Positions 53,111 to 62,374 of a stretch of DNA of 64,000 nucleotides are shown here, piece after piece. How positions within the stretch are numbered: the first letter of the stretch is position 1; each line of letters opens with the position of its first letter. The stretch spans positions 535,949 to 599,948 of the forward strand of contig NW_001865053.1 in the NCBI RefSeq assembly GCF_000002865.3, written 5' to 3'. A model generated the notes under the pieces. The model had not been told where the DNA came from, searched no databases, and saw only the letters and a program-made list of their open reading frames with translations. Position numbers and translations under genes: made by a program. The stretch comes from Monosiga brevicollis MX1. Its lineage: Eukaryota; Opisthokonta; Choanoflagellata; Craspedida; Salpingoecidae.

Positions 53111-54236
53111 TTCTGCAACGACCTCGCCCCCTCTTTCCGAACTGTCTTGGTTTCGTGGGGCTCCATCTTTTTGATGATTGTGTCCTTTGATTTTGCCTCC
53201 TCCTCCCGAACTTTTGACCTTACCTTGTGCTGTCGCTCGTCGAATGTGTGATGTGATACCTTTCTCCACCTTGCTGGCTCGCACTCTTTTGAGTCCGAAG
53301 GGGGCACCCATGTGGGCTTCTGTTTTCATCGTCTGTATGTCCATCGCCCATCCTTCTGCCCATGTATCCAAGGTTATCCAACCTGGGCTTTGCCCCACCC
53401 GATGCAGCGCTTATGCGCATGGTACATACATACTAGGCTTTTTGATCCCAAAAATTGATCCTGTGTATCCCGTCCCCCTGCGCTCTCCCAACGACCTGAT
53501 TGGCTTGCAGCGCTTGCATGCAAAAGCACTCTCGAAATGAGGGAGGGACAGCCGCCGGTAACGGCTCATTTGGAGGAAACAGCATTGAAGGACAGCAGTT
53601 TAGAACAGTCTGGCAAAAATGTTTGCCCTGGTGAGCTAAACTCCGGCTTTTGGGGCACTGGAGGAAGGAGATTGAATTCAGAGTGAAAGGGGGTGTTTCT
53701 TTTGGGGAGGTGGATGGGAAAAGAAGAGGTAGAAGGCACGGCAGACGAATGGACAGAGATACAATGACAGGTATGCATGCACCTGGTGCCAGAAGGACAC
53801 AAAGAAGTACATTAACATGTAAGCTCGTCACGCCACCATGGTCCTTTCCAAAGTCCGTACGACGGACCAGTTGCAGGAGAGAGACGCCAGCAATGAAACC
53901 TAAACACACCCTGTTGCCTCAAAGGCGACAACCCGTGGGGAAGGTCGCCAAGGCTGGGCAACAGAGAAAAGCACACGCACGGGAAAGAAAACGAGGAACA
54001 AAGAGAAGAGAAGAGCATCGCTCCCTTGGACATGGATCACGCAGGCGGGCAATGTCAACGCCTTTGGCTGGACACATTGTCACGGTTGCCGTGTTTGGTG
54101 CGCGGGCAGGCGTCTAAAAGCATTATCCCCTTCTTCTGCGTCCAGGAGGTGGCGCGATCCAAGAAAGACAAGAACAGGCACATATGCAAACGATCAACAA
54201 AGGAGGAACAATCGATCGTTGGCAAGTCAACGGGCT
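53111..54236. other. Intergenic region, nothing recognised
   Basis: 1.1 kb between convergent coding ends (RA protein plus, Rab21-like minus). The open frames are Arg-rich, without domains. No repeat of note. Confidence 0.5.
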
Positions 54237-54568
54237 TTAGCAGCATCCATCACCAGCTGCCGCCTGCGCAGAGGCGCCACCGTCTTCCTCCACCTCAACA
54301 CGGTGTGGATCTCGTCGTCGACGCCCAGAGTCCGTGGTACCGTGCTGTGCGAGCATGGCTGCAAACGTGGCCACGGCAGTGCACGAAAAATAAGCGGTGA
54401 GGTGCAGCCAGGGTTGAGTCGGGCAAAGGAGATGCCCGCGAACAGAGACGAGGGCCAGGCCAGGAACAAGGGCACACACTCTTGGTGAGTTCCTTGAACA
54501 TTTCTTCAATGCCTTTGTTCTGTTTGGCCGATGTTTGAAAGTGGACGGCACCCACTGACGCGACATAG
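54237..54568 (-). CDS. Rab21-like GTPase, C-terminal exons only
   Basis: Two joinable minus-strand exons, 54568-54480 and 54358-54237. The first encodes YVASVGAVHFQTSAKQNKGI then EEMFKELTK, matching the last strand, the G5 motif (TSAK) and the final helix of Rab21 (Rab5 group, early endosome). The second starts with TMLAQHGTTDSG and ends in a variable tail finishing GDGCC-stop, a double-cysteine geranylgeranylation site. The upstream acceptor at 54570-54569 is good, so more 5' exons should exist. I could not find the P-loop, DTAGQE or NKxD exons on this strand up to about 56 kb. It is either a fragment left by duplication, a gene with a distant or rearranged 5' part, or an assembly misjoin. 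Confidence 0.6.
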
Positions 54569-55523
54569 CTACAACGGCCGAACAGAGGAAAAATGAGACC
54601 CGAGTCCGGAGGCGTTGGACGCAGAGCGGCAACACTCCCACACTCCGGCGCGCATCCCGTGGTGCGCGCGCCCGGGTGTACATGACTTGATGTTGTGGAA
54701 AACTCGCGCTGCGAAGCTTGGCTTGCTGGATCTTGTTCATCAGACGTGGCAGCCAGTTGTTGTACGAGTCGCAACTGCCTCTTCTTGCGGTGCGATGGCT
54801 GCAGCTCGTGGCTGTGCTCTCTCCAATCATCTGCTGGGTTAGCGTTTGGTTGCCCTATGGTTGCTGACACGCCAGAGGGGAGCACGGTGACTGCAGCAAA
54901 GGTCACCGCAGTCTTCCCTGGCAGCCGATCCTGGCCTCGCGGATCCATAAAAGTCTGGAAGCCGTTTTTGTGAAATCTATTTCAATGCCGCGCACAAACA
55001 GTGAGGCGTTTCCAACATCGCGCGCACAGCAGTGCGATGTGCTCCACGACAAGCTGGAGTCCTAATGTAGGCATCCTACCTTTGATCTCTGACGATGTGG
55101 CTGATCCTGCGACGTTGGATCCAACGGCGCTGCATTGCGCATGGCGGCTGCCATTGGCGGAGGTGTGGGCGTCAACGGAGGCTCACCGCGCCACGTGGCA
55201 AACGCATTTAGCACCTGCCTGCGCCTGACGCGACGTTTACTGACTGGCTGATTCTGATTCTGGTGTCGCGCACGTCAGTGACGCCTCGTGCCAAACGAAA
55301 AACCGTCTCTGGGGGCCGTGGGATCGCAAGGTGTCGGCGGCGAGTGGTTGAGCATGTGCACAGCAGCAGCTGCCTCGGTCTGTGTGGACAACAGAGGCTC
55401 GCATGTTGGGCATATGGACAGCAGCAGCTGCCTCAGTCTGCGTGGACAACAGAGGCTCGCGTGTTGGGCATATGGACAGCAGCAGCTGCCTCGGTCTGCG
55501 TGGACAACAGAGGCTCGCGTGTC
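54569..55523. other. Region upstream of the Rab21-like exons
   Basis: About 1 kb with open frames on the minus strand but none with Rab G-motifs or other domains that I recognise. The right end holds the 58-bp repeat array listed separately. Confidence 0.45.
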
Positions 55524-55527
55524 TTAG
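55357..55527. repeat. 58-bp tandem repeat, about three copies
   Basis: Units begin with CAGCAGCAGCTGCCTC at 55361, 55419 and 55477, period 58, nearly identical (a few transitions), with the last unit incomplete at about 55527. As 58 is not a multiple of three, each unit is read in a different frame, so a coding role is unlikely. It starts just beyond the stop of the small minus-strand gene at 55524-55970. Confidence 0.9.
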
Positions 55528-55970
55528 ATGCGGTAGCTCCAGAGCTCGATGTAGCAGCTGGCGTGTTTGATGGCATGGGATGCTGTGGTATGCTGTGGCA
55601 TGGCTGCCGCAGACGTCTGTGGTGCAAGGGCGCCAACTGTCACAGCTCGTGCTGGAGGTGCGAGCTGTGCAGATGCCTCGTTTGTAAATGTTATACCTGT
55701 GTCCAAGTAACAGCGTCAGCAAGGGGCTGGGCGAGATGCAGAAGGTTGAAAGTACCAAAAAAAAAACATACATCCGGATACACAGCCAGCATCGACAAGA
55801 GGCTTACCGGCGCAGGTGATAAGCAGCTCATGCGTCTGTGAGCAGACGCTTGTCAAGGAATGAACGGACTTGTTTGCATCAATGTCGTTGGAGACAGGTG
55901 TGCACTTGTCCACGACAGCCAAGAGCTTGGCCAATGATCTGTTGGCCTTGGCACCCTGTGCACTCGACAT
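55524..55970 (-). CDS. Small two-exon gene of unknown function
   Basis: Exons (minus) 55970-55808 and 55696-55524 join in phase to 111 residues. The first exon encodes an amphipathic helical stretch (ANRSLAKLLAVVDKCTPVSN, VHSLTSVCSQTHELLITCAG). The second is Ala/Thr/Pro-rich and ends SCYIELWSYRI. Splice sites are good (GTAAG donor, ACACAG acceptor). In-frame ATGs further upstream (56027) add a hydrophobic stretch encoded across an A8 run and are less likely. I do not recognise the family. The first exon has the length and feel of a short coiled-coil or BLOC-type subunit, but that is only an impression. Confidence 0.45.
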
Positions 55971-56185
55971 CGACGAAATTACAATTACAAAAAAAACGTT
56001 CTCGACCACTGTGAGACCCGCCATCATCTAATTTTAGCGCATAAGCAGCCGTTGGAAATGGCGGGAAAGATTTGTCGACTTGCATTTTTCTTCTTCTTCT
56101 TCTTTTTTTTGGGGGTTTTTCTTGGTTTTTTTTTTTTCTTTTTCTTGGAAGGGGTGTGGGGCGTTGCTCTTTGGCATCCCGCATC

Positions 56186-58575
56186 ATGGACGATCCATCG
56201 GATGACCTGCAGCGGTTGCATCTTGTGGAAAGAGCCACTGGGCAGTTTGAAAGCGAAGGGCAAGCCACCCAAAGTGAGCCTGAAACGCGCCGAGCCGAGC
56301 AAGCAACCGAGGACGAAGAGCGCGCAGAGCCAGCAGCCGAAGTGCGCGCAGAGCCAGCAGCCGAAGTGCGCGCAGAGCCAGCAGCCGAAGCACACGAAGA
56401 CGAGCTAGCAATCGAAACTGCTCGGCTGAAAGCGCGCGAAGCCGAGCTCGAAACTGCGCGGCTGAACGCCGAAACTGCGCGGCTGTACGCCGCAGCGCGC
56501 GAAGCCGAGGCCGAAGAGCGCAAAGCCGAGCGCCTCGAAAAGAAACGGACGTTGTGCAGTGAAAAGGTTTGTCGTGCTCCGTCTCGCTGTGAGACCACCT
56601 ACCACCTCTGCGCACGCCAGCCTCACTTGATCTGCGTTCACTAGATCGCAATTTTGGAAAACATCTTTTGCGGCCTCACTACGACCCACACCATGGCCCT
56701 GCGAAAGAAGATGATGGCATTCAATGATGATCAATTTCATAACTTTGTCGTCTGTCTTATCAACAACGAAACCTCACCCCAGACGATGAAGAAACATTTT
56801 CCCTTGAAAGGTGTGTTTGACGTTGTGTGTCACCCATTCCAGGTCTGCTGTCGGTCATTGTTGGGTGCACCTGCATACAGTTGGTGAGCCACCGCACTCA
56901 CATGACCGTCTTTGATTGCACGTGTGCAGGCTTTACGTGGCAAACAAGAGAATCAGTTGCTAACGCGATGCCCTCAGTAGCGCCCTCATCTACCCCGACT
57001 CTGACCGATGCATATGAAAAGCTCGGTTGCATCGTCGCAGAGCTTCCCTGCAGTCACCACTACTACGCAGCGAAAATCGTCAAGCACATCGATGAGCTTT
57101 GCGCGGATGACAAGCGGACGATCGACAAGAAGTTGATCGAAGACCTCAAGTGGGCGGTCGATGTTGAGCGACATTCCCGATTGCCTCAGCTCCAGCAGGA
57201 GAGCGACATTTCTTCCCGATTGACTATCGTGCTGCAGCACCACTTTGGCCTGGACTTTGTCCATCAATATTCGATTGGCGACAAGAACACCCATGTCGAT
57301 TGGGCGGGCTTTGACCAGAACCACCACGTTGTTGTCATGGGCGAGTGCAAAAAGGACAAGCAGCCTTTCCATCAATATGGAGGACAGGTTGCCAATGAAC
57401 TCGAGCGACTGGGAGCCATTGCTACACGGTATGAGAGCGACAGCGAGTCCAATGGACTGGATGGCCGGAAGTCCACAGAGTGGCCCATTGTCAACATCAA
57501 CGTGGTGGGAGACCATGTGAGCGCATACCTGGTCTTGACGATTTCTGGTGAGCGCTGGGCGGCGGTCGAGGAAGTCTTACCATCATTTCTGCCATCACTT
57601 GGGGTTGACAGTGCCAACAAAAAGAAGAAGTATTCCGGAGTGTTTTTTTTGCGCCTCGGGTGTGCAAGCTTGTACAAAAATTCGAGGCAGGTCGAGTGCA
57701 TCTTGCAAGCGTGCAAGGAGTTTGTGCTTGGTGATCAGGCAAGCTTGCTGGCTGACGCGCAGAAAACAAGATCGCGGCCATTCTTGCCTCGACAACCATT
57801 TCCTTGCCCTTTTAAGGACCTCTGCGAGAAAGATTTGCAATTGCACAAATCGTTTGGTCCCAGCGTGCAGGTCTACAGCGACGAGAAGCAACTCAAGGTG
57901 TTGTACAAGCACTTTGACTACTGGGGTCGCTTGCCAGGCCTCTGCAGTGCTTTGAGCAATGGCTTACGTGCCGCAGATTGCCGCCACCCGCCCGACGGCC
58001 GAATCCTGGAAAAGCTCGCTCAACTGGATGTGACGGGCTCCTTCTATCAGGAGTGGAAGGTGACGAAGCTTGCAACTGCCGTGCATGTGCTCAGCTACCC
58101 TTACGTGGAGCTGGCGCCCCCCAGCAAGCTCGAGCAACTGGCCCAGGTCATCCGCCAATTGGAGGCCATACACAGCGTTGGCTTTGTGCACGGCGACATT
58201 CTCCCTCGCAACATTCTTTTTTGCAGTGCCTGGGAGGGGCATCCAGCGGCCTTTCTCATTGATTTTGATCTCGGCCGGTTTCTCGACGACAACCCTGTCT
58301 ATGTCTGCAATTTTGCCGTGGAGGCGGGGGCGCTGAAGCCGTATCGTCACAAGGGTGCAGTGCCAAGTTCGAGGATGTACAAGAAGCACGATGGTTTTGC
58401 TTTGGCACGTGTCATGGAGGGCTTTTTAGAGGATGACGACTCTCGTCAGAAGCTGGTGGCTGCGCTGGAGGAGCTTAGCTTGGCTGACGCTGCCGATCTG
58501 TGTATGAAGTGCAAGCTTTTGTCTGAGTTTAAGATTTCTGTGCCGGGCAAGGCGACCGGAAGTCCTCGTAAGTGA
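56186..58575 (+). CDS. PD-(D/E)XK nuclease-like plus protein kinase-like fusion
   Basis: Three exons, 56186-56566, 56645-56810, 56930-58575, in phase, 730 residues. Residues 1-127 are very acidic with three exact 8-residue repeats (AEPAAEVR type, 24-bp DNA units at 56320-56391), then an ETARLxA coiled coil. Residues 250-350 look like a PD-(D/E)XK nuclease fold: helix SDISSRLTIVLQHHFG, HVDWAGF (Asp about 302), then VVVMGECKKDKQ with the E-x-K pair (about 320). The C-terminal 250 residues are kinase-like: VLYKHFDYW, then FVHGDILPRNILF (catalytic Asp and Asn, about 602-607), LIDFDLGRF (DFG-like, about 627) and a short C-lobe. The order nuclease then atypical kinase resembles Crinkler-type effectors and fungal FunK1-like kinases. 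Key residues of both parts appear present. Function is inferred from fold only. Confidence 0.7.
56320..56391 (+). repeat. Three 24-bp coding repeats
   Basis: Three tandem units starting GCGCGCAGAGCCAGCAGCCG, identical except for the last base of the third, in frame in the N-terminal acidic part of the nuclease-kinase gene. The identity at synonymous sites points to recent expansion. Confidence 0.95.
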
Positions 58576-59050
58576 GCCAACTCAAGGGTGTGTTTGCCGA
58601 TCTTGACCCAATTTCTGTCCACGTTTTTCTGTTAAAGCCGTGTTATCATGTTTTGACTGCGCGTTGTATTGAAAGCTGACTGCATGAATGAAAGCCATAC
58701 TTCTTCACTCCCAAGAGGCAGCCTACCAAATTGATTGTGCCAAGCAGTGCGCCTAATGCAAACACTGTAGCTGCTAGCAGCCGCAGACCAATCGATCTCA
58801 GATCCCGACACCACGATACCTTTGCAATTCGCTCCTGTTGCGCCGAAGCAGCGGCACCGAGCTTGATCGCTGTCGGAACCTCATGGTGCTTTGCTCACAC
58901 ACACACACACACATACAATCGTCAGTGCGAGCGGACACACTTTACAACGATGCGGGCCGTTCCTACTCAACCCTGTGCCCGTCCTTGGCAAACGCCAGCT
59001 GACTTGGTCTTCCTGCTTCTAGTGCGACTACTGCGCTTCACATCCGTTTC

Positions 59051-59772: not shown

Positions 59773-62374
59773 ATGACAATGGAGGACGATCCCTCGGTAT
59801 CCCTGTGGACCATCCTCCTCAACCTGGGCTCGGCATTGGCTGAGGAACAGCTTTGGGCCTTGGCTGAGAGCGCAGCCGAAGCGCTACACACCCGTGGAAA
59901 TGATCTGGGCCTGCCCTCCAAAGATGATATTGCCACTTTTGTTTTGACGCCATACAGCCTACATGTTCTGGCCTCGGGCGCGATCAACCTGACAGGTCTG
60001 CGTTGCCCTGCTGCCTCGCACCCGCCAGCAAAATTCCAGCCACTCAAATATGTCGCACAACCCCCAACCCCCCTGATTGTGCAGATGATGTGGCCCCAGC
60101 TGACTTACGCGATAAGTGCTTGGCTGATGAGGTGAAAGAAGACATGGCGCTGGAAGCTGACGCGCTCAAGGTAGAGCTCTGCCAGCCGCCCGCGCGTGAT
60201 GGGTTCACCTTTTTCCGATTCGTAACAACTCTCGCCTCTGGTCCTGACTTGCTGCGTGAAAACGGCACAGACACATGTGTACGGCCTGGGTGCAACCCTC
60301 TTCATGGCTGCCGACTACGGCCTGTCCGATCAAGAGGAGCCGGAACTCTCGTCGGGTAAGCTGCACCCTCGCCGTCAAGCGCAAAGCATGGGCCGCTTTT
60401 GATCAATGGCTGTTCATTTTCCTGGACTTGCCTCCACTCTTCACTGGACTTCATCATGGCTCCATTCTTTAGATATGGAAGCCTTAATTTCCGCTATGAC
60501 AGACGACGAGGTTGTCGATCGCGCCAGTGTGGATGAAGTCCTCCAGGTACACCCCGCTTCCAAGGCGTCGCACGATCAGCCGATTTGAGCTATCTTCTTG
60601 CACTCTTCCACGCACAGTCCAGCTCAAGGGTTCGTGATTGCATTGGCATGGCTGTTGCCGCGACTGATGCAGGATATACGGCAAATGAGTACTGCTCATG
60701 GACGCACAGCCACGCATATTCTCCAACAACTCTATCAACTCGCCCAGCGTGCAAGCCAGGTAGAATGCAATTGCAATTATCTCGTCCCCGACTTTGTTGG
60801 TCTTGGCAGCAATCAGCAGCTCAAGCTTCGTGCTACCCTTTGTTTTATGGGCATGTCAGGTGCCGGGGGATGCCTCAGAAATCCCTGCAGCCATGGACCC
60901 CCCTCCATCATCCGACACCACTGGCTCTGGCGACATACATGCATCTCTCATGCAAGAAATCCGAGGCAATGGCTCGACCCGCCTTCGTGATGTAAGCTAT
61001 TTTTTTCTTTTCCTTTCTTTTCTTTTAAGCTCCGAAGGATTAGGGCCCACTTGTGCTTGCGATGTGCTCTGTACGTACCTGTTGTTCATGTTGACTCTTG
61101 TACACGCCTGTCGAATGAATGAAACGCATGAACAGGCTCAGCAGCGCATCCTCGACGGGCCAGACCCCTATGTGACACCACGCGAGCAACTTCTCGAAGA
61201 CATTCGACGCTCCTCCCGTGCAACGCTTCAGAGCCTTCCATCGTATGAGGCTTTGCCTGTCCCTGCTGACGCGACCTCGGACGAAAGCGCGCCCACCCGG
61301 CGTACCGTCAACGGCCGAGCAATCCTCCCGCTTCGACTCTCCACAGAAAGTGCCGAGGACGATCTCTCCGACTTGTTGGGCGACTGGGACCCTGCCGCGC
61401 AGGTGCAACTAGCTTTTGCGGCAGAGGCTGCCGTGGACGACGCTGCGCGGTTTTTGGACGATGTGCAGGACGAGGCGAATTCCGGTAACGGCTCTGAAGA
61501 AGGGCGGGGGCGAGCGTCAAAGAGCGGCGCTGACTCGACCCCACCGTCATCAATGCAGCAGCGCGCCGTCCTTCAGGTGGACGAGCCCGAGCCTCTCTCC
61601 GAACCCCAAAAGCCGTCAGTGCCCTTGCATCGCCCCCTTTCCCGCCCATAAGCGTGATGGCCGGTGCCTTGGCATGCAGAACTTTTCTCGCATGTTTCCT
61701 TGTTTCCTCACCTCTCGATCAACTCATTTTGCAACATTACTTGTTCGTGTGCGCAGTACTTTTGTGGGCTTTGGAGATTTTGAGCACATCAATAAAATGC
61801 TTTTCAAGGCGGAATTGGACGAGTTACAGGATACGGACCCAAAGGCGGTATGTCTCTTCTGTCTCCCACTCCCGTTCCTTCCCCTCTCTGTGGACTACTC
61901 GTACTTTACTTGTGTGATGCCCCTTCTTTCTCTGCATCGTTGCCCGATACAGTACGCAGCGATCAACGCCAACAAACTCTGTGCTGTCTGCCTGAAGCAG
62001 CGCTTCACGTTTTTCATTCGCGCCCGCTTCTGTGAAATGTGCCAAAGACCAGTTTGCGGGTACGATGGGTGCATGCTGCCGAGGCGCCAGTCTGAAAAAA
62101 AAAGATATCTTTTGAACACCCTTTTGCTGTGATTATGTTGTGGCTCACCTTGGTGGTGATCCCCGCTTGTAGGCAATGCTGCAGCCAAGTACCGCTGCCA
62201 CAGCACATGTGCATGGGTACGGGCGGTAGTCCGATATCTAGCCCAGCTATGCGACGAAAGCTCCCAGTAAACGGCCGCGTATCAAACGATTCGAATGCGT
62301 GTTTACGTGCCCTGCTTTGCCGCGAATGTCGGGGGAGCGTCGGTGGGGCTGTCCTTTCCCCGGGGCACAAGTAA
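59773..62374 (+). CDS. SPIRE: Spire-type actin nucleator (KIND-WH2-Spire box-FYVE)
   Basis: Homologue of Spire, which nucleates actin with WH2 repeats and works with formins through KIND. Exons 59773-59995, 60085-60170, 60271-60355, 60473-60546, 60673-60759, 60860-60991, 61136-61614, 61757-61847, 61953-62059, 62173-62374 join in phase to 521 residues. KIND domain about 1-185: VSLWTILLNLGSALAEEQLW and HVYGLGATLFMAADYGLSDQ with the acidic EEPEL. WH2-like motifs: SLMQEIRGNGSTRLRD (about 212-229) and REQLLEDIRRSSRATLQS (about 245-262). Spire box: INKMLFKAELDELQDTD. FYVE-like zinc domain: LCAVCLKQRFTFFIRARFCE, MCQRPVCGQCC and the late CLRALLCREC pair. Human Spire1 has four WH2 repeats and about 750 residues; here only two are evident. 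Confidence 0.85.

Follow-up and report, generated by a model that had tools for sequence, protein, structure and literature searches.

A multi-copy family of probable Crinkler-RHS-like genes in Monosiga brevicollis combining a candidate nuclease region with a kinase-like domain

Introduction

Proteins of the CR class (Crinkler-RHS-type) have become known above all as plant-pathogen effectors. In section 11 of PMC5289972, which deals with Zhang et al. 2016, the combination of a REase with a kinase accounts for about one-sixth of the CR C-termini. The same source reports CR proteins from free-living eukaryotes, describes some of their headers as unrelated alpha-helical domains, considers that the REase may be under the control of kinase or NTPase parts, and notes that the cell death caused by CRN8 was abolished by changes in the REase and not by changes in the kinase.

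The window, that is, the whole stretch of DNA that was analysed (64,000 nucleotides of Monosiga brevicollis MX1), contains a gene that has in common with the CR proteins a nuclease-like domain and a kinase in one protein, placed behind a variable N-terminal part, and a multi-copy condition; the occurrence in a free-living eukaryote and a header of its own, helical by eye, are also in line with the section cited above. It differs in possessing a charged, coil-like stretch and an own header of about 55 amino acids instead of a recognizable Crinkler Ubl header, and in an insert within the kinase of one of the two Monosiga subfamilies. The Crinkler (CRN) Ubl/LFLAK header, PF20147, gave no match in the window protein at E <= 10; the genome-wide search with this profile carries no information, as its controls were equally silent. 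The likeness to Crinkler-type effectors proposed in the initial annotation therefore holds for the REase-kinase combination, which PMC5289972 describes in its section on CR proteins, and not for the header. Membership of the CR class is not proven, because the Crinkler header was not detected and the likeness is one of architecture and not of direct homology comparison with a CR REase. On the other hand, the proposal of an undescribed system was too strong, since REase plus kinase is a CR C-terminus already described in that source.

Gene structure and N-terminal part

Positions 56186-58575 of the forward strand correspond to a single gene of three exons, which after GT-AG splicing is translated into a protein of 730 amino acids with an open frame up to the stop codon (Table 1). 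The start and end of the gene, as well as the union of the nuclease-like and kinase-like parts in one frame, were thus correctly annotated. The segment HVDWAGF..GECKKDK maps to aa 304-326 and HGDILPRN..DFDLG to aa 603-631.

Table 1. Features of the REase-kinase gene and its surroundings in the window.
Feature	Position	Strand	Description
Exon 1	56186..56566	+	aa 1-127; charged, acidic, tandem repeats; coiled-coil-like by eye
Intron 1	56567..56644	+	GT-AG; same sequence in copies A1, A2, A3
Exon 2	56645..56810	+	about aa 128-182; header of ~55 aa, ends PLKG; helical by eye
Intron 2	56811..56929	+	GT-AG; same sequence in copies A1, A2, A3
Exon 3	56930..58575	+	aa 183-730 and stop; nuclease-like and kinase-like domains
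PD-(D/E)XK-like region	57028..57735	+	aa 216-451, segment used as AlphaFold input; core about aa 263-345
Predicted nuclease motif D306 ... E321-x-K323	57298..57351	+	conserved motif
E273	57199-57201	+	predicted nuclease residue
Q335	57385-57387	+	predicted nuclease residue
Protein-kinase-like domain	57796..58572	+	aa 472-730; profile matches, conserved residues
K509	57907-57909	+	predicted kinase catalytic Lys
Kinase catalytic loop HGDILPRN	58189..58212	+	aa 603-610
Metal-binding motif DFDLG	58261..58275	+	aa 627-631
Kinase C-lobe patch	58255..58524	+	aa 625-714; 11 nonsynonymous and 2 synonymous differences from A2
Duplicated segment, second copy on contig C37	53553..58917	.	5.4 kb, 94% identity, (CA)n run at end

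The acidic, repeat-bearing N terminus was confirmed: exon 1 is acidic and charged, with a 24-bp tandem repeat (3.2 copies, 56314-56390) and 21-bp repeats at 56449-56530, the assignment as coiled coil being made by eye. The length of this exon varies even among the near-identical copies A1 (the window copy), A2 and A3. The 5' part was viewed in 15 copies, 14 of which present coil, header and catalytic exon, with a variable number of coil repeats; no header was seen in the 5' part of the remaining copy, A7. The exon-2 header recurs in both subfamilies, A and B. The subfamily-B rows are only 11-17% identical to the window header but agree with it in position and end motif; the name header is given for its position, no Pfam family being convincingly matched. 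A known adaptor domain was considered for it and discarded, as Pfam gave four weak matches, each in one or two of 11 members.

Two further observations concern this part of the gene. Copy B1, on contig C19, shows two header-like stretches in different frames in its 5' part, perhaps a local duplication of coil and header. Upstream of the window gene, a 58-bp tandem repeat of three copies is located at 55347-55522.

The kinase-like domain

The kinase segment of the window protein passed the Pfam cut-offs of APH (PF01636; 24.9 bits, cut-off 23.2) and Kdo (PF06293; 21.8 bits, cut-off 21.3), while Pkinase and Pkinase_fungal stayed under theirs; with the whole window protein as query no kinase family exceeded its cut-off. 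PHROG 2361, annotated as 'serine-threonine kinase', was matched by five of nine members (E 7.3e-7), and weak matches to kinases were obtained in the PDB. The residues of the protein-kinase-like superfamily (catalytic Lys, Asp and Asn, and the metal-binding Asp) are present: K509, H603, D605 and D627 occur in 13/13 aligned copies and N610 in 12/13. In the seven aligned copies of subfamily B, a charged low-complexity insert lies between the catalytic loop and the DFD motif.

Profile matches and conserved residues agree with the kinase-like domain of the initial annotation, but its closer affiliation to FunK1 was not upheld. Pkinase_fungal/FunK1 (PF17667) shares the kinase-like fold and was weakly matched around the catalytic loop in eight of nine members; however, it reached 19.8 bits against a cut-off of 24.1 in the window member, no better than Pkinase, APH or Kdo. 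With Kdo/WaaP and APH the window segment shares the catalytic core, slightly over both cut-offs, but these matches cover the catalytic stretch only and there is no sign of a sugar- or antibiotic-kinase context. Judged from its sequence, the domain is kinase-like and not specifically FunK1.

The nuclease-like region

E273, D306 and K323 are present in 13/13 aligned copies, Q335 in 12/13 and E321 in 11/13, with D in its place in one more (B5). The motif was put into a rule (E, D, hydrophobic run, (E/D)xK, Q) with the sequence already known. The first form of this rule was matched by A copies only and failed on all subfamily-B rows, after which it was loosened once. Eight of nine aligned copies fit the looser form, a number that none of 10,000 column shuffles attained (maximum 6). 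In a single sequence such a pattern is no rarity: 979 of 20,000 shuffles of the window sequence contain it, about 1 in 20.

When the nuclease part was searched against Pfam, the window member matched no family and there were three weak matches, each confined to a single member; PADLOC and PHROGs each yielded one weak match, again to a single member, and the PDB two weak ones (E 0.47 and 1.6). The best NCBIfam match was a hydroxylamine reductase model (E 8.1e-4, two of nine members), echoed by the PDB match at E 1.6; both were judged to be due to chance and this identity was rejected. AlphaFold was run twice on the single sequence, with poor pLDDT values of 36.8 and 45.8. The second, low-confidence model shows a helix at 269-288, strands at 295-297 and 314-323 and a helix at 329-356, which fits in part the expected alpha-beta-beta-beta-alpha-beta order; a strand at D306 is absent from both models, and a Foldseek search with the second one gave no match at E <= 0.001. 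The dN/dS of the core (aa 263-345) was 0.26-0.41 in six pairs of subfamily A and 0.57-1.00 in five pairs of subfamily B, so that those B pairs show poor constraint on the REase core.

From its conserved motifs, the region is probably a PD-(D/E)XK-like nuclease. The core proposed in the initial annotation was thus sustained by motif conservation across copies, but not by profile searches or by AlphaFold and Foldseek, which gave no confident nuclease fold. The missing strand at D306 in both models and the weak constraint of the REase core in subfamily B weaken this assignment, and with it the explanation that we prefer for the family (see below), and strengthen to the same effect a different one: that these genes are a kinase signalling family, whose N-terminal alpha/beta region is a binding module and not an active nuclease. 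The want of a nuclease family match in PDB, Pfam, PADLOC, PHROGs and NCBIfam, the low-confidence models and the replacement or loss of residue 321 in one copy each are in its favour. We consider it unlikely, as D, (E/D)xK and Q are kept across both subfamilies at a PD-(D/E)XK-like spacing that column shuffling did not reproduce.

Copies in the Monosiga genome

The genome searched comprises 39.5 Mb in 57 contigs; in agreement with its attribution to M. brevicollis, a 41-aa Unc18-type peptide encoded in it matches PDB chain 2xhe_A, the UNC18 of this species, in 41 of 41 residues. In this genome, the window protein as query detected at least 18 loci and a fragment on C2, and a subfamily-B query found the same places; all counts of loci are lower bounds. 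Subfamily A comprises eight loci (C42, the window copy; four on C50; one each on C37, C56 and C47) and subfamily B ten (two each on C19 and C31; one each on C13, C42, C43, C40, C52 and C34), and a tree of 13 copies divides the two with 100/100 support. The paralogue count that had been suggested as a test of the annotation thus revealed a multi-copy expansion with variable N termini.

Not all copies are intact in this assembly: exon 3 is interrupted by in-frame stops or frameshifts in A7, A8 and B9 and by in-frame stops close to its start in A5; assembly gaps affect B6 and B10. The count of catalytic residues therefore comprised 13 of 18 loci, leaving out A7, A8, B9, B6, B10 and the C2 fragment, with A5 counted only from about aa 258 on; the alignments named A1 and A2 hold nine of the 13 rows. 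Copy B3 lacks E321, Q335 and N610, three of the ten predicted catalytic residues, with both domains hit, as expected if both sites are catalytic and B3 is decaying.

No close relative was confirmed in viral contigs, in phages, or in bacterial and archaeal genomes searched with the nuclease alignment. Fifteen plasmid records matched weakly (E 0.02 to 0.9), all of them inside the kinase part. Among the literature matches listed, judged by titles and beginnings of abstracts, none dealt with this REase-kinase family of Monosiga, and passages of PMC3482391 and PMC3886924 do not describe it either; Zhang et al. 2016 may already list these genes.

Divergence, recombination and duplication

Within subfamilies, dN/dS was 0.4-0.6 in 31/36 pairs and below 1 in 35/36; the pairs outside 0.4-0.6 are close copies (A1-A2 0.81, A1-A3 1.16, A2-A3 0.39, B2-B4 0.81, B4-B5 0.66). 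Such values indicate an evolution that is constrained but fast. The introns of A1, A2 and A3 are identical (0/197 positions differ). In exon 2, on the other hand, the counts of nonsynonymous and synonymous differences are 12 and 0 for the window copy versus A2 (Fisher p 2.2e-6 against introns and synonymous sites), 11 and 0 for the window copy versus A3 (p 8.9e-6), and 3 and 0 for A2 versus A3 (p 0.21); the comparison internal to exon 2, 12 changes in 132 nonsynonymous sites versus 0 in 33 synonymous sites, is a small one. At kinase aa 625-714, A2 and A3 show no differences from each other, and a comparison of either one with the window copy gives 11 nonsynonymous and 2 synonymous changes (p about 3.5e-4). 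Both patches were picked by eye after inspection.

This clustered amino-acid change suits diversifying selection or gene conversion. Positive selection as the sole cause is not claimed, given the small counts and the exchange between copies visible in a mosaic: the sequence of copy B2 is (nearly) that of B4 as far as roughly the kinase catalytic loop and (nearly) that of B5 beyond it, so that exchange between copies swaps kinase halves.

The match of the duplicated segment on C37 (Table 1) and that of the C50 copy, which shares 56011-58917 with the window, end at the same (CA)n run. The upstream pieces 54013-54344 and 55405-55608 were found downstream, and not upstream, of the C50 copy, and therefore their order has been rearranged. 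Beyond the gene, the next stretch of the window (59776-62132) matched a FYVE-like zinc finger weakly, under the cut-off (E 0.046), and its start resembles by eye a Spire-type KIND domain, for which Pfam gave 0 families.

These results bear on the possibility that the genes belong to the biology of mobile elements, being cargo or remnants of TEs, or selfish nuclease genes, with no role for the cell. The copies are dispersed, A5, A7, A8 and B9 are decayed as described above, and the CR section of PMC5289972 gives as the presumed source of CR nucleases prokaryotic proteins that are associated with transposable elements. Nevertheless, introns are retained in A1-A3, which favours segmental duplication at the DNA level over retroposition, and the two duplications, of different lengths with one common edge at the (CA)n run, look the same way. 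The two block ends that were tested lack inverted 9-mers; the genome contains eight RVT_1 and five rve matches, the nearest listed of which is at least 31 kb away from each of the 19 family places, or there is none on the contig; and dN/dS below 1 in nearly all within-subfamily pairs speaks against genes of no use. We regard this origin as quite unlikely.

Proposed function

On balance, we favour the interpretation of the gene as one member of a CR-like REase-kinase family of conflict proteins in Monosiga, probably acting inside the cell; its mode of action is plausibly that of a CR REase-kinase protein. The mechanism that we infer, together with the predicted nuclease fold on which it depends, would be as follows. 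The variable charged N terminus would oligomerise the protein, and the fast-changing header and kinase C-lobe would meet a trigger, target or inhibitor. The kinase, with ATP, would then license or restrain the nuclease, a step taken from the CR literature as presented in PMC5289972, after which the PD-(D/E)XK domain would cut invading or cellular nucleic acid. In a more specific and rather doubtful version, the family would constitute an intracellular immune or self-killing nuclease system, with an oligomerising N terminus, a diversifying sensor formed by header and kinase C-lobe, kinase-gated DNA cleavage, and variety generated by recombination among about 18 copies. The headerless copy A7, a clustered change possibly due to gene conversion and the lack of a Crinkler header count against the conflict interpretation.

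Intracellular conflict is the most likely use, more likely than secretion. It is improbable that the protein is secreted and acts in prey, competitors or hosts in the manner of oomycete effectors. Secretion is unsupported because no hydrophobic N-terminus was seen by eye in the window protein; this protein also gave no Crinkler header match, and Monosiga lives by bacterivory and not by parasitism. The CR-effector-like architecture and variable N termini would agree with secretion, and the absence of a signal is compatible with export, since, according to the CR section of PMC5289972, Zhang et al. ruled out the signal peptides of classical CRNs.

Significance

The genes described here are a real and expanded family whose copies recombine, present in a free-living protist and of an architectural class that was already known. 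The header and the kinase C-lobe patches are concrete targets for testing the proposed function. If the interpretation favoured above is true, the presence of such a recombining and rapidly evolving REase-kinase family in a bacterivore that lives freely would suggest that CR proteins have a role in defence or intracellular conflict beyond parasites too, and in a lineage close to animals.
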